A stretch of DNA of 64,000 nt from Nitrospira sp. (GTDB taxonomy: Bacteria > Nitrospirota > Nitrospiria > Nitrospirales > Nitrospiraceae), in NCBI GenBank assembly GCA_019636835.1, contig JAHBWU010000001.1, positions 62,001 to 126,000 on the forward strand, read 5' to 3'. Under the pieces are notes generated by a model that saw nothing but the letters and a program-made list of their open reading frames with translations, had not been told where the DNA came from and made no database searches. Every line of letters begins with the position of its first letter. Position 1 is the stretch's first letter. Made by a program: the position numbers and the translations under genes. Positions 21,610-28,012 of this stretch are shown here, one piece after another.

Positions 21610-21651
21610 TTGACAAAACACAACATCGTAGATTATTGATACTAGTTATCA
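21610..21651 (+). promoter_or_regulatory. Module A promoter with Fur-like palindrome
   Basis: A -35 TTGACA at 21610-21615 and a -10-like TATTGA at 21634-21639 are 18 bases apart. The -10 overlaps an AT-rich palindrome, TGATACTAGTTATCA (21637-21651), of Fur-box character. The same TTGACA-N17/18-TATTGA-palindrome arrangement occurs at 26075 and 27147. It would fire the leader RNA that ends at the terminator near 21756. Confidence 0.6.
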
Positions 21652-21660
21652 GAATCACGT

Positions 21661-21756
21661 CCGAGGCCATTTTCTGACATAGGACCTCGGTTAGAGGCCA
21701 GAGTACTTTACGTCCAGAGCCCAAGATCGCCAGGCGGCGGTCTTGGGATTTTTTTT
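21661..21756 (+). ncRNA. Structured leader or small RNA, copy A
   Basis: Starts with a hairpin (CCGAGG 21661-21666 with CCTCGG 21685-21690), then the shared segment GAGGCCAGAG (21694-21703) and CAGAGCCCAAG, and ends in an intrinsic terminator. Copies B and C share the same segment order. Unlike them, the small central GGTC/GACC hairpin is degenerate here. Because a separate ECF-type promoter lies between this terminator and exbB, copy A could be a free-standing small RNA. Confidence 0.5.
21720..21756 (+). terminator. Intrinsic terminator of module A
   Basis: CCCAAGATCGCC (21720-21731), loop AGGC, GGCGGTCTTGGG (21736-21747), then A and eight T residues. The stem is complete with one G-U pair. 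Relative to copies B and C the inner stem bases differ but pairing is kept. Confidence 0.8.
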
Positions 21757-21857
21757 GCCGGACAAAAGGAATGGAGGGTAATCGGCAGGTCAATATCATC
21801 TTATCGTCCACATTCCAGTGAAGAGGGAATCATGAAGCGAAGATTGCCCAATTTCGC

Positions 21858-21886
21858 GGTGAGGGTTTTGTACGCTCAATCGTCTT
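21858..21886 (+). promoter_or_regulatory. Candidate ECF sigma promoter upstream of exbB
   Basis: GGTGAG (21858-21863), 17 bases, CGTCTT (21881-21886), 60 bases before the exbB ATG. The same GGTGAG-N17/18-CGTCTW pattern lies upstream of the PepSY gene, the TonB receptor gene and the first synthetase gene. CGTC-containing -10 boxes are usual for ECF sigma factors; the local FecI-like sigma is the obvious candidate reader. Confidence 0.6.
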
Positions 21887-21946
21887 CTGGTACGGAGGGG
21901 TGTTGTCGGATGGCTCAGCGTCGATCAAGAAACAAGGAATCGCAAC

Positions 21947-22372
21947 ATGGACATGCTTAAAGATCTGGTGGATTACGGAGTTATTGGATTACTCGTGGCG
22001 CTCAGCCTCTTGGCTCTGGCCGTGGCAATCGAACGGTGGCTCTACTATCGACGCGTCACGCCGAGTCAGTTCGGCGACATTCAGCTCCTGGAAATGGCCC
22101 TGACGAAACGACTGGTCGTGATCGGCACAGTAGCGGCCAATGCGCCCTACATCGGGTTATTGGGCACCGTGTTGGGCATCATGCTGACGTTCCATACGAT
22201 GGGCACGTCGGGAACGATGGCGGTCGGTGCGATTATGGTCGGGCTAAGCCTGGCGCTCAAGGCGACCGCGATCGGGCTATTGGTCGCGATCCCATGCGTT
22301 GTCCTGAACAATGTTCTTCGACGCCGCGTGTCCGAACTGCTCACGCTGTACAAGGTGCAGCATGGAGCGTGA
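21947..22372 (+). CDS. exbB: ExbB/TolQ-family proton channel subunit
   Basis: 141 residues, a short form compared with about 240 in E. coli ExbB. Three hydrophobic segments (about 9-29, 60-85, 95-120) include the conserved ANAPYIGLLGTVLGIMLTFHTM and GLSLALKATAIGLLVAIPC. With ExbD it forms the inner-membrane motor that uses proton motive force to energise TonB. The ATG overlaps nothing upstream; its end overlaps exbD by 11 bases. Directly upstream are module A and a putative ECF promoter. Confidence 0.93.
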   Translation: MDMLKDLVDYGVIGLLVALSLLALAVAIERWLYYRRVTPSQFGDIQLLEMALTKRLVVIGTVAANAPYIGLLGTVLGIMLTFHTMGTSGTMAVGAIMVGLSLALKATAIGLLVAIPCVVLNNVLRRRVSELLTLYKVQHGA

Positions 22373-22736
22373 GCTGAATCAGATCAACGTCATTCCACTG
22401 GTGGATGTGATGCTGGTGCTCTTAGTCATTGTCTTGACCACAGCCACGTTCATATCGACGGGACAAGTGCCGGTTGAATTGGCGAAGGCAAAAGAGGTGA
22501 ACGATCACCGAGACGTGCCGTTGATGATTACCCTGACGGCCGATGGCCGCCTGTTTGTGAACGACCAACCTATTCCGACGGATGGGCTGGCGACTGTCCT
22601 GCACGCGCATTCTCGGGAGTCAGCGGTCATATTGCGGGCTGATCGCGTTACAGTTTTAGAGCGGTTCGTGGGAGTGGTCGATGAAGTGAAGGGGTTCGGG
22701 TTTCGACAGGTCAGTTTGGAGGTCCTACGATCATGA
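22362..22736 (+). CDS. exbD: ExbD/TolR-family biopolymer transport protein
   Basis: 124 residues from the ATG at 22362. A short cytoplasmic N-terminus (MERELNQINVIPLVD, with the essential membrane Asp) leads into one transmembrane helix (about 12-32) and a periplasmic domain. Starts inside exbB and stops on the tonB ATG (ATGA), so the three subunits are translationally coupled and probably made in fixed ratio. Confidence 0.92.
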   Translation: MERELNQINVIPLVDVMLVLLVIVLTTATFISTGQVPVELAKAKEVNDHRDVPLMITLTADGRLFVNDQPIPTDGLATVLHAHSRESAVILRADRVTVLERFVGVVDEVKGFGFRQVSLEVLRS

Positions 22737-23596
22737 CCATCGGCGAATTGAACCGCATCAGCGCGAGCGCTGTTCCCGAACAAGCAGGTGGTTGGATGGC
22801 CTCTGTACTGCTGCATCTCCTAGGCCTCGCCGGCGCGATGCTCATCATGGCAAATATTGAGCAACCGGTTCTGCTCGAACCATTTCACTGGGATATCTCA
22901 ATGGTGGAGGCATCGGCCTCCACTGAACCGACTCAGCCTGAATCCATGCCGACCGAACGAGTGATCAAGCCGACCCCTTCACCCGTGAAACCGAAGCCTC
23001 CTATCCGAACGGTCACTCAGACGATTGTCCAACAAACCCCACCACCGACTTACGATGAGGCAACGGTTCCTATTGAAACGACACAGATCGTGAAGGACGT
23101 GGTCGCAAACGCAGAGCCGGTGATGGAGTCTCCCGTCATGGAATCGTCGGAAAACCGACTGGTTACATCTCAGGTTGTCATGGCAGAACCGGCAGTTTCC
23201 TCTGAGACGCCGACTATCGAGCAGGAAAGACGCGTTGAGTCGACAGAAGTGGCAGTAGAACAACGCATCGTCCAACAGAAACTCGTGCACTATCGTAGAA
23301 CTCAGGCGGACTATGGTTGGCTGGGGGATATGGTCAGGAAACGGATCGAAGAATTGAAACATTATCCGAAAATTGCACGAGAGAACCACTGGGAAGGCCG
23401 AGTGGTCGTACAGGCGGTCATCAAGGCGGACGGAACGGTTGGAGATCTCAGTGTCGCTGAAAGCTCAGGCCACGCGTTGCTGGATCAGGATGCCTTGGTG
23501 GTCATGAGGAAAGCCTCGCCGTTGGCGCTCAAACATCAACTAGAGAAGTCGCAGATCACCATTCTGGTTCCGATCAGTTATCGCTTGGAAGGATAA
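22733..23596 (+). CDS. tonB: TonB energy-transducing protein
   Basis: 287 residues. A membrane anchor (about 20-40), a Pro/Lys/Glu/Val-rich periplasm-spanning linker (about 60-190, with PTPSPVKPKPP) and a C-terminal TonB domain (about 205-287: YPKIARENHWEGRVVVQAVIKADG, then SSGHALLDQDALVVMRKASP). It connects the ExbBD motor to the TonB box of outer-membrane receptors such as the one encoded at 28678. Confidence 0.93.
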   Translation: MTIGELNRISASAVPEQAGGWMASVLLHLLGLAGAMLIMANIEQPVLLEPFHWDISMVEASASTEPTQPESMPTERVIKPTPSPVKPKPPIRTVTQTIVQQTPPPTYDEATVPIETTQIVKDVVANAEPVMESPVMESSENRLVTSQVVMAEPAVSSETPTIEQERRVESTEVAVEQRIVQQKLVHYRRTQADYGWLGDMVRKRIEELKHYPKIARENHWEGRVVVQAVIKADGTVGDLSVAESSGHALLDQDALVVMRKASPLALKHQLEKSQITILVPISYRLEG

Positions 23597-23648
23597 CAAG
23601 CGGAGCAAGAAACACTAAAGGATGGAACATGTACAAAGGAGAATCACG

Positions 23649-24107
23649 ATGAATCGCCAGACGATCATACGTTCAATCATTCGCTCCGCGTCATTCATAT
23701 CTGTGATGGGAGCGCTTTGTCTATTCGTCGATCCAGCTTGCGCCCAGAACAGGAGCGAGAAAGCATTCCACGCCGTCGCCGTCGATGCCAAAAGTGTTGA
23801 GACCGACGTCAAGAATGTCATTTTTTATTACGAAGAGAAGATCAGTGAAACCGCGTTCGTCCCGCACGAGCTTCGCGAATTACCTGTGAAGCGCGGTACC
23901 GCCACGGTCAAAATCAAATTCGATGGCATCAAACATATCGATCTCAAGCCGTCCGGCAACGGTGCGGCGCCTAATGTCATAATTACGCTCAACGACGGCA
24001 AGACGGGCGAGTTTGTCCTGGCCATCGCAGGCAGTTTCAAAGGCCAATCCGAATTCGGGGAAGTTGAATTACCGGCAGCAGAACTGAAAAAGCTCACATT
24101 CAAGTAG
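23649..24107 (+). CDS. Small exported protein of unknown function
   Basis: 152 residues from the ATG at 23649, which has AAAGGAGAATCACG before it. A signal peptide with an AQN-type cleavage region (...VDPACAQ) is followed by an acidic/lysine-mixed mature part that looks beta-rich (KRGTATVKIKFDGIKHIDLKP, PNVIITLNDGKTGEFVLAI). I do not recognise the family. Position 50 bases after tonB, in the same direction, suggests that it belongs to the same transcription unit and works in the periplasm or outer membrane during iron uptake. Confidence 0.75.
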   Translation: MNRQTIIRSIIRSASFISVMGALCLFVDPACAQNRSEKAFHAVAVDAKSVETDVKNVIFYYEEKISETAFVPHELRELPVKRGTATVKIKFDGIKHIDLKPSGNGAAPNVIITLNDGKTGEFVLAIAGSFKGQSEFGEVELPAAELKKLTFK

Positions 24108-24169
24108 AGTTTACTTCGGTGCATCTTTAGCATCCTGGATTTGCTACAAATCGACTCGGAGGAGAGCGC

Positions 24170-24322
24170 ATGTCTTTACATTTTCTGTCAGCTGTCTTCC
24201 CGCCCTGTCGAATCTACGTCAGGTTCACACAATCTCATACGTCAGATCTCTCGTGGAGAGGGTTCAATTTTTCTGAATTCAGACGACCAAGCATGCGGTG
24301 CACGAACGAGGTAGGACAATGA
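24170..24322 (+). CDS. Possible 50-residue coupling ORF before zinc-ribbon gene
   Basis: An ATG preceded by a near-perfect GGAGGAG (24158-24164) opens a 50-codon frame that ends exactly on the next gene's start as ATGA (24319-24322). The peptide (MSLHFLSAVFPPCRIYVRF...) matches nothing that I know. The same layout, a strongly initiated short frame ending in ATGA on a zinc-ribbon gene, occurs at 26260. It may be a leader peptide whose translation controls the next gene, or a real small protein. Confidence 0.4.
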   Translation: MSLHFLSAVFPPCRIYVRFTQSHTSDLSWRGFNFSEFRRPSMRCTNEVGQ

Positions 24323-24483
24323 GTGAATCGCACGCGCCGGCCGCGTCGGGCGAGGACGTCCGGTGCCACTGTGGGAAGCTGATGGCCCGCTGGCAAGGCC
24401 AGAGTCTGGTCATCAAGTGTACACGCTGCAGGCGATTCATTCGGATTCATGTATCTGCCATCGGCGGTAAGCCACCACCCTGA
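24319..24483 (+). CDS. Com-like Cys4 zinc-ribbon miniprotein
   Basis: 54 residues from the ATG at 24319 (GAGGTAGGAC upstream). Core VRCHCGKLMARWQGQSLVIKC-TRC-RRFIRI: two cysteine pairs (CxC and CxxC) in the spacing of the Com/zinc-ribbon family first known from phage Mu, where Com activates translation of the mom modification gene. There is no phage context here. It lies between tonB and a PepSY membrane protein, so a metal-sensing or RNA-binding role in the iron response is conceivable but unproven. Confidence 0.65.
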   Translation: MSESHAPAASGEDVRCHCGKLMARWQGQSLVIKCTRCRRFIRIHVSAIGGKPPP

Positions 24484-24635
24484 ACTGCTGACTGGTGTAC
24501 GTCGGTGGCCTTCCACCGTAGTGAGTCTATTCCTAGACTGTGGATCCGTGAAGTCAGCACGGCTTTGTCGTCAGGAGAGGCGGCGAGGACAGCTTTCCGA
24601 AATCGTTCCTCTAAGGTCTGCGGAGCAAAGAACCG

Positions 24636-24664
24636 GGTGAGTCTTCTGCCCACTTCCCCGTCTT
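24636..24664 (+). promoter_or_regulatory. Candidate ECF sigma promoter upstream of PepSY gene
   Basis: GGTGAG (24636-24641), 17 bases, CGTCTT (24659-24664), followed by AAGAG, 65 bases before the ATG at 24730. Matches the pattern seen before exbB, the receptor gene and the first synthetase gene with identical spacing to exbB and the synthetase site. Confidence 0.55.
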
Positions 24665-24729
24665 AAGAGGATAGGTGAGTCTGTTCATACACAGGCCAAG
24701 CTCCTCGTTACACCAAGTGGACGACCATC

Positions 24730-25980
24730 ATGATTGCCGACCGACTGATAACCGTTCTCCCGCAGCCGGGCGGGGTGGGATCCGTTGATTCCCCTGAGGC
24801 CCTATGTCCACCTGCACCAGCGCATCACCGTTTCAAGTTGAGAAAAGTTTGGCTCAAGCTCCATCTTTATCTCGGACTATTCGGAGGTGGGCTGTTCGTC
24901 TTGATGAGTCTCACCGGCAGCTTCCTCGTCTTCTACAAGGCTATCGATGAGTGGTTGAATCCATCGTTGATGACGACGAACGGCAAGGGCGCCTACCGGC
25001 CGTTGAATGAAATTGTCGCGGCGGCCAAATCGGCTGGTCCTGTAGGTGGGGTGCTGGACGGCATCGAATGGCCGTCGCACCGGCACGGCGTCTTCCTTAC
25101 CTGGTACAAGGTGCAGACCGACAACGTCGATAAGTTCCGATGGCTTCAAGTGACCGTCGATCCGTATACGGCAGCCGTGCTGGCTAAGGATCGCGAATGG
25201 GGCGGCTATTTGGTGTCGTTTATCTACCATCTGCATGCATCGCTTCTTCTAGACGATACTGGTGCGACAATCGTAGGGTTTGCCGCTATTTTCCTGCTCG
25301 TCTCAATCAGCACCGGTTTGTACCTCTGGTGGCCGCGCCCGGGTAGACTCCGTCAGGCACTGACTTTCACGTCACGACGAAGCGTCATTCGTCGTCAGTA
25401 CGAGTGGCACAAACTCAGTGGATTTTATGGCGCAATCATTCTGGGGATGTTGGCCTTTACCGGTGTCTACTTAGAATTTGGCGACTACGTTATCCCGATC
25501 GTTCGACTCTTTTCTCCGGTTCAGGAGTTTCCCAAGGAGGAAGCGCTACAATCCATTCCGATTGCAGGCACTCCTCCATTGTCCGCAGAGCAGGCGATTA
25601 CGCTTGCAGGCCAAGTTTTCCCAGACGGAGAGTTGCGGTACCTCGGTTTGCCGCAAGAAGTCCGAGGGGTCTATTACGTTGCGCTGCATCAACCGGGCGA
25701 AGTGCGGGCATCGGGTGGCGAAAGCCAGGTGTGGCTGGATCAATACAGTGGCAAAGTGCTTCGCGTTCATGATTGGAACCGGTTCACCGGCGGTGAGACC
25801 TTCTTGGCCTGGCTCTTCCCCCTGCATAACGGAGAAGCATTCGGCCTCACCGGACGCTGGATCGTTTTTGTCGCCGGTTTCGTCCCGCTTTTGCTGTATG
25901 TCACCGCGCTGCGCATGTGGTGGCTGAAGCGCGCAGCGCATCGTCGACAAAGTAGAGCACCAATTTCCGCTTATGAATAG
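24730..25980 (+). CDS. PepSY-associated membrane protein (iron-uptake associated)
   Basis: 416 residues. Four or five membrane helices: about 50-72 (LYLGLFGGGLFVLMSLTGSFLVFYKAID), 175-200, 230-255 and 375-400. The pattern LKLHLYLGL..., HLHASLLL and RRQYEWHKLSGFYGAIIL is that of the PepSY_TM family (PiuB and relatives), often next to siderophore receptors and thought to take part in periplasmic iron reduction or siderophore handling through histidine-bound haem or metal. Function here rests on that family habit and on the adjacent TonB system. Confidence 0.88.
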   Translation: MIADRLITVLPQPGGVGSVDSPEALCPPAPAHHRFKLRKVWLKLHLYLGLFGGGLFVLMSLTGSFLVFYKAIDEWLNPSLMTTNGKGAYRPLNEIVAAAKSAGPVGGVLDGIEWPSHRHGVFLTWYKVQTDNVDKFRWLQVTVDPYTAAVLAKDREWGGYLVSFIYHLHASLLLDDTGATIVGFAAIFLLVSISTGLYLWWPRPGRLRQALTFTSRRSVIRRQYEWHKLSGFYGAIILGMLAFTGVYLEFGDYVIPIVRLFSPVQEFPKEEALQSIPIAGTPPLSAEQAITLAGQVFPDGELRYLGLPQEVRGVYYVALHQPGEVRASGGESQVWLDQYSGKVLRVHDWNRFTGGETFLAWLFPLHNGEAFGLTGRWIVFVAGFVPLLLYVTALRMWWLKRAAHRRQSRAPISAYE

Positions 25981-26074
25981 ACGCACTTAGCGTTCGCCGG
26001 TCTTGTCCGTCGTTGCCTTCCTATCCGCTACGGGATAATCCCCGACAAGGTACGTAGAAAATGATCAAATGGGA

Positions 26075-26115
26075 TTGACAACTTTTGATAATAATGATAT
26101 TGAGAATACATATCA
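26075..26115 (+). promoter_or_regulatory. Module B promoter with Fur-like palindrome
   Basis: TTGACA at 26075-26080, 17-base spacer, TATTGA at 26098-26103. A 21-base near-palindrome with TGATAT and ATATCA ends (26095-26115) covers the -10 and matches module C (27168-27188) at 19 of 21 positions. A further TGATAATAATGATAT run just upstream adds Fur-box-like character. Repression by an iron-loaded Fur-type regulator is the simplest interpretation. Confidence 0.65.
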
Positions 26116-26121
26116 ATTATG

Positions 26122-26228
26122 TGAGGCGCGAAGAGACTGATCCCGTAGCAGTGCCTCATAGGTAGTAGCGAGGCCAGAGGTCTTCACGACCGGAGCCCAA
26201 GGTGTCAAAGGACACCTTGGGCTTTTTT
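26122..26228 (+). ncRNA. Structured leader or small RNA, copy B
   Basis: A first hairpin (TGAGGC 26122-26127 with GCCTCA 26153-26158), then GAGGCCAGA (26170-26178), a small hairpin GGTC-TTCAC-GACC (26179-26191), CGGAGCCCAAG and a terminator. Copy C has the same order with compensating stem changes. The transcript from the promoter at 26075 would be about 120 nucleotides if it stops here; read-through would express the miniprotein genes that follow. Confidence 0.55.
26195..26228 (+). terminator. Intrinsic terminator of module B
   Basis: GCCCAAGGTGTC (26195-26206), loop AAAG, GACACCTTGGGC (26211-26222), then six T residues. A perfect 12-base-pair stem, placed 31 bases before the first start codon of the downstream genes, which suits attenuation. 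Confidence 0.85.
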
Positions 26229-26259
26229 CTTGAAGGCGAGGAGTTTGGAGGAGATGCAC

Positions 26260-26322
26260 ATGGAGGTACATTGTCAGCTCAGGCGACGTATATCGGGAAA
26301 ATTGTCAAGGAGGGAAGCATGA
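26260..26322 (+). CDS. Possible 20-residue basic leader peptide
   Basis: ATG with GGAGGAG six bases upstream (26247-26253). The peptide MEVHCQLRRRISGKLSRREA is strongly basic and ends in ATGA on the start of the following zinc-ribbon gene. The segment GGAGATGCAC before this ATG resembles GGAGATGCGCG before the sigma-factor ATG in module C. It is too short to trust by itself. Confidence 0.4.
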   Translation: MEVHCQLRRRISGKLSRREA

Positions 26323-26486
26323 AATCAACCTGCAGAAGATGCGGAGGCTTCGTGGTCGACGAGCAAGTGCTCGATTACTATCAATCGAGTCGTTGGAGGT
26401 GCGTGAATTGCGGTTGGCATCGCAGAGAGACTGAAATATCGTCAAGTCGGGACGTCAGATGGGCGAATCGTGCCGCCCACAGGTAA
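26319..26486 (+). CDS. Cys4 zinc-ribbon miniprotein
   Basis: 55 residues from the ATG at 26319 (AAGGAGGG upstream). Two CxxC pairs, STCRRCGGF and WRCVNCGWH, separated by about 24 residues, form a classic zinc ribbon, followed by a basic tail (RETEISSSRDVRWANRAAHR). Probably a nucleic-acid- or metal-binding regulator. It is the first full gene behind module B, so its synthesis should follow the Fur-like promoter and the terminator upstream. No specific function is assigned. Confidence 0.65.
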   Translation: MKSTCRRCGGFVVDEQVLDYYQSSRWRCVNCGWHRRETEISSSRDVRWANRAAHR

Positions 26487-26520
26487 TGCAGAACATTGAA
26501 CGACGAAAGGGGAAGACGCT

Positions 26521-26739
26521 GTGAAAAATACGTTATCAACCGCTGGGGCGATGAAGCTGGTCCTTTGCGGGTGCGGCAAGCTTCACGTGACATTAGGTTC
26601 CATCACGCTCCACTTCACGCGCGACGAGTTTCAGATGTTTGCCGAAACGATACAGCGCCTTGCGGCGATTGTGGCGCAACCATCTTTGGGACAAGCCTCA
26701 GTGATGACACAATCCAGTCCGAGCGAGGTCTGTCACTAG
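26521..26739 (+). CDS. Small conserved-looking protein with CxCG motif
   Basis: 72 residues from a GTG start with AGGGGAAG upstream. The centre LCGCGKLHVTLGSITLHFTRDEFQMFAETIQRL combines a CxCG pair with a beta-beta-helix pattern; I do not recognise a named family. It lies 34 bases behind the zinc-ribbon gene in the same direction and should be co-transcribed. Confidence 0.5.
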   Translation: MKNTLSTAGAMKLVLCGCGKLHVTLGSITLHFTRDEFQMFAETIQRLAAIVAQPSLGQASVMTQSSPSEVCH

Positions 26740-26806
26740 GGATGATCGGCGTTTTTTCGGATTAAGCTGGTGAGTATTGAGATAAAAAGTAAGCGGAAGA
26801 TTGAAC

Positions 26807-26971
26807 ATGAACAAACGTTACGTGCAATCTCGAGATGATCTTGCGGTACTCGTCAGTTTGACAGCGGCGGTCGGTATTCTAGTGTCGGCATCGGTTGCGA
26901 TGTGGGTATGGTCAAGTATCTCGGAGAACGTGGTAACGGTGACGGTCGAAAGAGGATCGGATATCCAATAG
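26807..26971 (+). CDS. 54-residue single-span membrane miniprotein
   Basis: ATG at 26807, stop at 26969-26971. A charged N-terminus (MNKRYVQSRDD) precedes one hydrophobic helix of about 25 residues (LAVLVSLTAAVGILVSASVAMWVW) and a short polar, probably periplasmic tail (SSISENVVTVTVERGSDIQ). Only a weak GGAAG ribosome-binding site is visible. It is the last gene of the module B unit, before module C. It might help in membrane signalling, since the sigma pathway here lacks a normal FecR; that is speculation. Confidence 0.45.
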   Translation: MNKRYVQSRDDLAVLVSLTAAVGILVSASVAMWVWSSISENVVTVTVERGSDIQ

Positions 26972-27146
26972 AAGCCCCTATGGACCTTGCTGGTCTCTTA
27001 TACAGCGGCAACTGGTTCTACCGTAGGAGGAATGGAGGGGTTTCCGGTATAAGATCATCCGCATAGTTATCATGTCGATACTCCGTATCTTCCTCAGTGG
27101 GATAGAATCCTGAGCAAAATATATCGTGGATTCTAGGAATAAGGAG

Positions 27147-27188
27147 TTGACAACAGCGATCATGAACTGATATTGAGAACTCATATCA
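27147..27188 (+). promoter_or_regulatory. Module C promoter with Fur-like palindrome
   Basis: TTGACA (27147-27152), 18-base spacer, TATTGA (27171-27176). The palindrome TGATATTGAGAACTCATATC(A) at 27168-27188 covers the -10, and the next bases (AATATGAGAAC) repeat its half-site, giving an extended operator. This is the presumed iron-responsive promoter of the sigma-factor gene. Confidence 0.65.
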
Positions 27189-27264
27189 AATATGAGAACT
27201 GTAGATGCAGAAGAATATAAAGGAATAGATCCATGTGCAGAAAATGATTCTAGGAGTAACGGGC

Positions 27265-27383
27265 TTGCAACTTTCGTTTCGAGCCTAGTTGCAAAACTCG
27301 CGTAAATAGCAGCCACATTAGAACGAGGCCAGAGGTCATTAAGACCGGAGCCCAAGATGTCCTTAGACATCTTGGGCTTTTTT
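27265..27383 (+). ncRNA. Structured leader or small RNA, copy C
   Basis: A first hairpin (TTGCAAC 27265-27271 with GTTGCAA 27288-27294), GAGGCCAGA (27325-27333), a small hairpin GGTC-ATTAA-GACC (27334-27346), CGGAGCCCAAG and the terminator. The distance from the -10 is longer than in copies A and B. It precedes the sigma-factor ribosome-binding site by about 20 bases, so read-through at the terminator would decide sigma expression. Confidence 0.55.
27350..27383 (+). terminator. Intrinsic terminator of module C
   Basis: GCCCAAGATGTC (27350-27361), loop CTTA, GACATCTTGGGC (27366-27377), then six T residues. Compared with copy B, G-C at the seventh pair has become A-U with pairing kept. Confidence 0.85.
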
Positions 27384-27415
27384 ATTGAGAAAAAAGCAAT
27401 TTAAGGAGATGCGCG

Positions 27416-28012
27416 ATGAGGACCCAGGGTTTGAATCTCGTCGGAGCAGAGTCCGCGCTATCGCATGATACGCGTGGTCTTGTGGGCGCTCCCATAGCCC
27501 TAACATATACGCAGATTGCAAGCTTGTTTCATCAGTACCGAGAAGAACTCACTCGCAGGTTAATCGGTATGGTGAAGTCGCGCGAGACAGCCGCCGATCT
27601 TGTGCAAGATACCTATCTGCGGCTACTTCGGCTGGGTAATCAGCATGTTGTTGAGCAGCCGCGTGCCTTGCTTCATAAAATTGCTACCAATTTGGCGATC
27701 GACCATTTACGAAAAGAAAAACACAGCGTTCAAGGAATCGATTGTTTGGATACTGCCATGGCGGTGCCCTGTCACGCACCTTCCCCGGAACGCGAGTTGC
27801 TTGGGAAACAGCGGTTTCGGCTTTTTCTGCGAGCCATCGACCATCTTCCCTCCCGAACTCGCGAGGCTTTTCTGCTCTGCCGAGTGTATGGGTACTCTTA
27901 TCAAGAGATTGCGAAGCGCATGAACATCTCCGAAAGCGGTGTGGAGAAGTTACTCATGCGCGCGCTCGACAGGAGTTGTCAGGCGCTGGAAGCAATAGAC
28001 AACGCCGAGTGA
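27416..28012 (+). CDS. FecI-like ECF RNA polymerase sigma factor
   Basis: 198 residues; the ATG follows AAGGAG (27403-27408). Region 2 includes FHQYREELTRRLIGMVKSRETAADLVQDTYLRLLR, region 4 includes LPSRTREAFLLCRVYGYSYQEIAKRMNISESGVEKLLMRAL. Both match the FecI/PvdS group that drives siderophore uptake and synthesis genes. About 25 unusual residues precede region 2. It sits behind module C, just upstream of a DUF4880 gene and a receptor with an STN domain, the standard cell-surface signalling order. The shared motif GGTGAG-N17-CGTCTW is its likely target. Confidence 0.92.
   Translation: MRTQGLNLVGAESALSHDTRGLVGAPIALTYTQIASLFHQYREELTRRLIGMVKSRETAADLVQDTYLRLLRLGNQHVVEQPRALLHKIATNLAIDHLRKEKHSVQGIDCLDTAMAVPCHAPSPERELLGKQRFRLFLRAIDHLPSRTREAFLLCRVYGYSYQEIAKRMNISESGVEKLLMRALDRSCQALEAIDNAE

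Follow-up and report, generated by a model that had tools for sequence, protein, structure and literature searches.

A conserved RNA element with an intrinsic terminator and a competing helix upstream of iron genes in Nitrospirota, and its putative Com-like partner

The 64,000-nucleotide (nt) stretch of the Nitrospira sp. contig JAHBWU010000001.1 analyzed here (the window; the whole genome from which it derives is G000) carries an exbBD-tonB region, an operon for small Cys-rich proteins and a gene for an extracytoplasmic function (ECF) sigma factor. Each of these is preceded by one copy of a single element, termed A, B and C respectively (Table 1), as is borne out by the list of open reading frames (ORFs) and by conserved gene clusters. 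A first-pass annotation of the window, made from its sequence, had described a promoter-leader-terminator module repeated at these three places, and this observation is confirmed. On inspection of the sequence each copy shows TTGACA, a spacer of 17–18 nt, TATTGA within a palindrome and, after a leader whose length varies, a core. The core is 62–64 nt long and runs from the GAGGCCAGAG segment through a small hairpin and CRGAGCCC (CRGAGCCCAAG in its full form) to an intrinsic terminator with a U-tract, all of which are found in A, B and C. The small hairpin is GGTC/GACC in B and C, as had been noted; A has GTAC..GTCC instead, with one mismatch. The extent of the phenomenon is larger than was then seen, and three features had been missed: a helix, P1, that competes with the terminator, a second class of the element devoid of a terminator, and a gene for a Com-like zinc-ribbon protein at 24319-24483.

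The exact pattern GAGGCCAGAGN{5,25}GAGCCCAAG occurs three times in G000, always within the window, and a covariance model recovers a fourth, more divergent copy elsewhere in this genome (C102:19254-19314). Of the 175 genomes of the family, 26 contain the exact pattern and none a reversed control pattern, while a covariance model built from 32 copies (R1) has matches in 143, with 1 to 8 per genome. When the search was widened to 396 genomes of the phylum, R1 matched in 126, namely 96 of the same family, 22 of another family of the same order and 8 more distant ones. Such a search of relatives had been suggested by the first-pass annotation as a check, and it did recover further copies upstream of iron genes. 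Copies in the final alignment score between 34 and 84 bits; among 31 genomes of other groups used as an outside control the top score was 26.4 bits, for a match resembling a generic terminator. Exact-pattern matches outside Nitrospira were set aside as chance or coding sequences because they lack a terminator, and reverse-strand matches of the model over positions 23/25-54 were excluded as the palindromic terminator read backwards. The earlier statement that no described RNA family has this layout agrees with our searches: Rfam 15 gave no match in the window at the gathering cut-off, none at E below 0.1 and nothing credible at E<1 (NsiR1, E 0.87, and BcKCsr2, E 0.16, fall below their respective cut-offs and were judged to be chance), and searches of the open literature on Nitrospira small RNAs, riboswitches and iron regulation yielded no description of the element.

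Selection on RNA structure, previously argued from terminator stems that differ in sequence and keep their pairing, is supported by strong covariation across 134 distinct sequences. In these, 94.7% of the cells are paired and 12 pairs have changed on both sides; the cells changed on both sides number 421, versus 105 on shuffling, and the covariation score is 0.506, as against 0.168 for shuffled alignments and at most 0.058 for slid structures. Folding of the individual copies is far better than that of shuffled sequences in B (z -5.5) and C (z -5.0), with a z of -3.3 in A. In the small hairpin and the upper terminator stem the sequence is free to vary, with compensation, whereas at the base of the terminator stem and over most of the unpaired GGCCAGAG it is 91–100% invariant. 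In the 5' part GGCC is conserved at 96–100%, followed by A (97%), G (91%, otherwise A), A (81%, otherwise C) and G (98%); 3' of the small hairpin there follow C (99%), R, GAG (99–100%) and CCC (99–100%), the last matched by GGGCU of the terminator (98–100%). As a plain terminator needs neither an invariant stem base nor near-invariant unpaired bases, this pattern points to some reader or to a second structure.

A candidate for the second structure emerges from comparison of the two classes. The terminator-less version (class II) has the form GACCAGA-GAC-N6-GTC-CCGA-GTC and is located downstream of Com-like genes, 20–40 nt 5' of the Shine-Dalgarno (SD) sequence of a porin gene. Comparison with the main, terminator-bearing class (class I) shows that bases 3-5 pair with bases 32-34 to form P1, which is GGC:GCC in class I, GAC:GUC in 38 class II matches, GGC:GUC in 11 and GGU:GCC in 2. 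The central pair, 4-33, is G-C in 142 cases, A-U in 39 and G-U in 12, so that it is paired in 193 of 193, versus 164 expected on shuffling; the A-U version is also found in one class I element with a terminator (L208). Since P1 uses the terminator bases 32-34, the hairpin composed of P1, an internal loop and P2 (the small hairpin) and the terminator are mutually exclusive. The isolated P1-loop-P2 domains of B and C fold to the predicted hairpin (77% of the ensemble in B), and for the full core of B the terminator is the predicted fold. Thus, judged from the covariation at pair 4-33 and the predicted folds, a conserved alternative helix excludes the terminator, and the layout of the two is that of an attenuator.

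Two other structural readings were dropped: a GGCC-AGA-GGUC hairpin that appears when B is folded is absent from other copies, and the internal loop does not conform to a kink-turn, as two bases are bulged where a kink-turn has three, and A occupies position 8 in 9%. Variants of the site occur in certain relatives. In L229 (1624-1690), and likewise in L226, a second copy without a U-tract lies directly 5' of the porin SD, in tandem with a terminator-bearing copy. In order-level relatives (L268, L282, L283) looser tandem GAGGACC..GAGTCCC repeats lie between a Com-like gene and the next ORF, and these are perhaps a third variant of the site.

Table 1. Copies of the element and associated genes in the window (R1, covariance model of the element; K and A5, conserved protein clusters and alignment)
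Feature	Position	Strand	Remarks
Copy A promoter	21610..21657	+	TTGACA 21610-21615, 18 nt, TATTGA 21634-21639; overlaps Fur-box-like palindrome 21637-21657
Copy A core	21694..21757	+	upstream of exbB (21947); R1 60.8 bits, E 7.7e-14
Copy A core parts		+	P1 strand GGC 21696-21698; P1' GCC 21719-21721; P2; terminator AGAGCCCAAGATCGCC..GGCGGTCTTGGG and U-tract
Copy B promoter	26075..26115	+	TTGACA 26075, 17 nt, TATTGA 26098-26103 inside Fur-box-like palindrome 26095-26115
Copy B core	26170..26231	+	upstream of small Cys-rich protein operon (from 26319); R1 83.4 bits
Copy B core parts		+	P1 26172-26174 with 26195-26197; P2 GGTC/GACC; terminator GGAGCCCAAGGTGTC..GACACCTTGGGC and U6
Copy C promoter	27147..27188	+	TTGACA 27147, 18 nt, TATTGA 27171-27176; Fur-box-like palindrome 27168-27188
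Copy C core	27325..27386	+	P1 27327-27329 with 27350-27352; P2; terminator and U6; R1 81.8 bits
exbB, exbD, tonB	21947..23596	+	downstream of copy A; ORFs; ExbB/TonB clusters K17/K2 recur 3' of the element in relatives
Com-like Cys4 zinc-ribbon protein (MSESHAPAASGEDVRCHCGKLMARWQ..IKCTRCRRF)	24319..24483	+	exbBD-tonB cluster, 3' of copy A; family A5; same as G000:C1:86316
Small Cys-rich protein genes	26319..26739	+	3' of copy B; K6 (CGG..CVNCGW) and K5 (CGCGKLH), conserved clusters
ECF sigma factor gene	27416..28012	+	3' of copy C; Pfam Sigma70_r4_2 E 2e-19; start codon 27416; K3 cluster in 20 loci

A conserved ORF on the same strand is present within 1 kilobase (kb) of 124 of the 135 elements examined, and in 114 it starts no more than 150 nt away; between U-tract and conserved start the median distance is 37.5 nt. 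Downstream genes encode an HD-GYP phosphodiesterase (38 loci), TonB (23) and an ECF sigma factor (20); others code for TonB receptors, ExbB, a Bfd-like ferredoxin (MYVCLCKG..CCGRCE), an AraC-type regulator, a MauG-like cytochrome, a porin, small Cys-rich proteins and Com-like zinc ribbons (the names Bfd-like, MauG-like, porin, TonB and ExbB are based on sequence inspection rather than Pfam matches). The copies thus mostly precede genes of one theme across relatives, as had been proposed for the window. Given that iron is the common part of these contexts, action in cis on the genes that follow it is the most likely role of the element. An intrinsic terminator separates the start codon from the promoter or gene that lies upstream, which, along with the predicted helix that excludes this terminator, supports an attenuator-like function, one of those the first-pass annotation had considered.

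Some of the neighboring genes are of interest by themselves. Three tiny conserved proteins, two Cys-rich and one membrane protein, belong to no Pfam family and are adjacent in the iron clusters of relatives that were examined (26319-26739 and 26800-26971 in the window; clusters K5, K6 and K13). In locus L150 of G000 (C102:15500-23000), in L159 and in similar loci, the element is part of a conserved operon with the order Com-like protein, porin, lipoprotein, FMN-binding-like protein, four-helix membrane protein, element, HD-GYP, and AraC or MauG, with bacterioferritin nearby. This operon has the appearance of a system for iron uptake or reduction that has not been described.

An element is preceded by a Fur-box promoter or, within an operon, by another gene; many copies are of the operon-internal kind and lack a Fur promoter. 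In the window, the palindrome TGATATTGAGAA-NNN-ATATCA is found at copies B and C only, with 0.04 occurrences expected by chance. The palindromes of B and C match the standard Fur box at 16–17 of 21 positions, that of A at 14 of 21, and those of leaders orthologous to A (L142, L144, L145) at 15–16 of 21. A single Fur homologue is encoded in G000 (C102:2998). The AT-rich palindromes at the TATTGA sites are therefore Fur-box-like and overlap the -10 region, as is typical of promoters of the Fur regulon, suggesting that these are Fur-type promoters to which Fur probably binds.

The leaders between promoter and core have features of their own. The first hairpin of copy A (21655-21693) differs in sequence in orthologous leaders (L144, L145, L134, L140) and yet remains paired there, the arms being CCGAGGCC..GGACCTCGG versus AGCCAGATGCC..GGCGTCTGGC. 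The leader of copy C (27178-27324) includes an extra conserved stretch of about 100 nt 5' of the core, with a GTTTCGRGCYTAG motif common to its ECF-sigma-type orthologues (L143, L136, L133, L135, L012), and this stretch may be a further regulatory domain.

The clusters with the element also encode a family of Cys4 proteins of 55–65 amino acids (alignment A5) with the pattern RC-C-G-L-AR..G-E-KCKRC-R. In a profile comparison with hhalign this alignment matched that of six phage Com proteins with a probability of 97.4% (E 1.2e-11), whereas a control, another small zinc ribbon from these clusters that is unrelated, yielded 1.3%. Com-like proteins of three genomes pass the curated Pfam cut-off; single members score weakly (7 of 17 at E<1), which indicates that these proteins are a distant branch of PF10122. 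With its R-C-x(1-2)-C...K-C-x-R-C pattern and this profile similarity, the protein of the window can be assigned to the Com (Zn_ribbon_Com, PF10122) family. Two Com-like genes are present in G000 (C1:86316 and C102:15732), one per element cluster. Across the genomes studied, 103 of 150 Com-like genes are within 10 kb of a listed element, with about 0.7% expected by chance. When 39 loci around the remaining genes were searched more closely, 31 yielded a full-length match, which in 28 cases scored at least 30 bits, and several further loci carry class II. An element of either class occurs within about 330 nt 3' of the Com-like gene in 69 of 96 cases. In five of the most distant genomes with the element (L198, L224, L226, L228, L229) the Com-like gene is directly upstream and ends 11–85 nt away.

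The conserved core resembles an RNA motif published for Com. Selection of RNA ligands in vitro by systematic evolution of ligands by exponential enrichment (SELEX) with a Mu-like Com yielded the motif GAG(N)2CC / CC(N)2-3GAG, mostly present twice, with the cores in loops that flank a variable stem of 3–4 base pairs and with an essential GA dinucleotide (Nowacka et al. 2019, PMC6483171). In class I the invariant parts, CC-A-G(A/C)G and CC-R-GAG, similarly flank a variable stem of 3–4 base pairs, and class II reads GAG-N-CC-NNN-GAG-N-CC. As letters and layout agree with the Com motif and the spacings differ, this similarity is a strong lead, rather than proof, that the Com-like protein is a plausible reader of the element.

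Taken together, these observations suggest that the element is probably, though far from certainly, a cis-acting transcription attenuator switched by the cellular Com-like protein and, in the copies with Fur boxes, by Fur. In one predicted fold the RNA forms P1 (GGC:GCC), an internal loop with a conserved GA (CAGA / RGA) and the variable, covarying P2; in the other it forms the intrinsic terminator, and the 3' strand of P1 is then part of the terminator's 5' arm, AGAGCCCA. At low iron Fur would allow transcription to start at the Fur-box copies, and the leader would serve as a second layer of control. The nascent RNA would form P1-loop-P2, and binding of the Com-like protein to this hairpin would shift the balance against the terminator. 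With the terminator blocked the iron-uptake genes would be read, antitermination being the most likely direction of control, although the opposite direction is conceivable. Class II, which has the same hairpin without the terminator, might instead act near the ribosome-binding site of the porin, closer to the action of Mu Com on the mom mRNA. As copy A leads a cluster that encodes a Com-like protein, this mechanism would imply a regulatory loop within the window itself.

Several points weigh against this proposal. The isolated hairpin of copy A is weak (-3.2 kcal/mol), and the covariation of P1 stems mainly from a single transition, that from one class to the other, with a few cases besides. 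With few transitions at pair 4-33 along the phylogeny, support for the competing helix is good and not overwhelming. The half-sites are mostly spaced by 1 nt, versus 2–3 nt in the Com SELEX motif, and Mu Com is reported to bind hairpin loops, unlike the internal loop seen here. The co-presence of gene and element in the phylum sample (both in 121 genomes, Com-like gene only in 29, element only in 5, neither in 241) is inflated by phylogeny and, the genomes being drafts, by the physical linkage of the two, and no Com-like gene was detected in 5 of the 126 element-bearing genomes. Finally, other small Cys-rich proteins share these clusters, so that linkage alone does not single out Com.

Alternatively, P1-loop-P2 might itself bind iron, heme or another ligand as a metabolite or metal riboswitch, with the Com-like gene merely another target. 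Its layout is aptamer-like, with invariant unpaired bases between covarying stems and an overlap with the terminator, and it occurs in few copies per genome upstream of functionally related genes; but an aptamer core of about 27 nt would be small, and the invariant bases look like the motif bound by a known RNA-binding protein with a relative encoded alongside, which leaves this explanation improbable. A similarly minor chance attaches to a reader other than the Com-like protein, such as the Cys-rich K5 and K6 proteins or a factor of the NusA/NusG type. While K5 and K6 are likewise encoded 3' of many copies, they show no similarity to any RNA-binding family, and it is the Com-like gene that directly precedes the element in the most distant genomes listed above. 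The small-RNA reading offered by the first-pass annotation, according to which Fur-controlled transcripts ending at the terminator act on distant mRNAs in the manner of RyhB or PrrF, fared less well than the rest of its interpretation, of which structural selection, iron genes, Fur-type promoters, novelty and the attenuator were all supported. The Fur-box promoter, the discrete terminator and the several copies per genome would suit such RNAs, yet the conserved start codons close by, the many operon-internal copies, the existence of a terminator-less class and the lack of a detectable Hfq in G000 (88% complete) make this very unlikely. Lastly, an ordinary intrinsic terminator spread as a repeat without a regulatory role accords with the functional-looking terminator of every class I copy and is the most remote of these explanations, given the needless invariance of the stem base and GGCCAGAG below a free upper stem, the covariation of P1 and the placement of copies mostly 5' of genes of one theme.

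Worldwide, Nitrospira oxidize nitrite and perform complete ammonia oxidation, and their growth depends on iron-rich enzymes. Control of iron uptake in Nitrospira beyond Fur is not described in the literature searched. The present analysis defines a searchable RNA family with a regulon (ECF sigma factor, TonB system, receptors, Bfd, HD-GYP and porin) and a candidate RNA-binding regulator, and it hints at a mode of iron gene control that has not been described. A role on the chromosome is also suggested for the Com family, which has otherwise been studied through one phage modification gene. More tentatively, and with somewhat less than even confidence, we suggest that the Nitrospirota use a cellular Com-type zinc ribbon throughout a regulon as an RNA-binding antiterminator and translation regulator of iron uptake, the metal state of its four cysteines possibly being the iron or zinc signal. 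If so, this would be an undescribed kind of iron control layer acting after initiation and, to our knowledge, the first chromosomal regulon for this protein family.

Among known systems, RyhB and PrrF share with the element a Fur-box promoter, a terminator and duplicated copies; unlike them, it is placed just 5' of start codons, with operon-internal copies and no Hfq detected in G000, and the 114 of 135 elements within 150 nt of a conserved start are not what is seen with stand-alone transcripts unlinked to a downstream gene. The NiCo and czcD metal riboswitches are likewise short structured leaders with a terminator 5' of metal genes, but differ in architecture, and the element has no match in Rfam 15. 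Ribonucleic antiterminators (RAT) read by LicT/SacY/BglG-type proteins are internal-loop hairpins of about 30 nt whose 3' strand overlaps the 5' arm of a terminator. The element has a hairpin of the same size in the same relation to its terminator, and protein binding would similarly prevent termination here, though sequence and protein family are different and no sugar transport genes are involved. In the case of Mu Com and mom (PMC6483171; PF10122), a small Cys4 zinc ribbon of the same family is encoded beside the RNA, paired half-sites similar to those of Com in their GAG/CC letters and layout surround a short stem 5' of the start codon, and class II precedes the SD as the site does in mom. 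In contrast, the putative Com binding described here would be cellular, with many targets per genome in an iron regulon and a different half-site spacing, and the main-class site overlaps an intrinsic terminator, placing control at transcription. The Mu site lies at a structure hiding the ribosome-binding site, whereas class I copies, including the three of the window, overlap the terminator, and in class II, which is near the SD, masking was not seen. The RAT-type antiterminators and Mu com-mom are nonetheless the closest in working principle, making the element a new RNA family of a known kind, the cis-acting attenuators, whose partner would represent a new use of the Com family.

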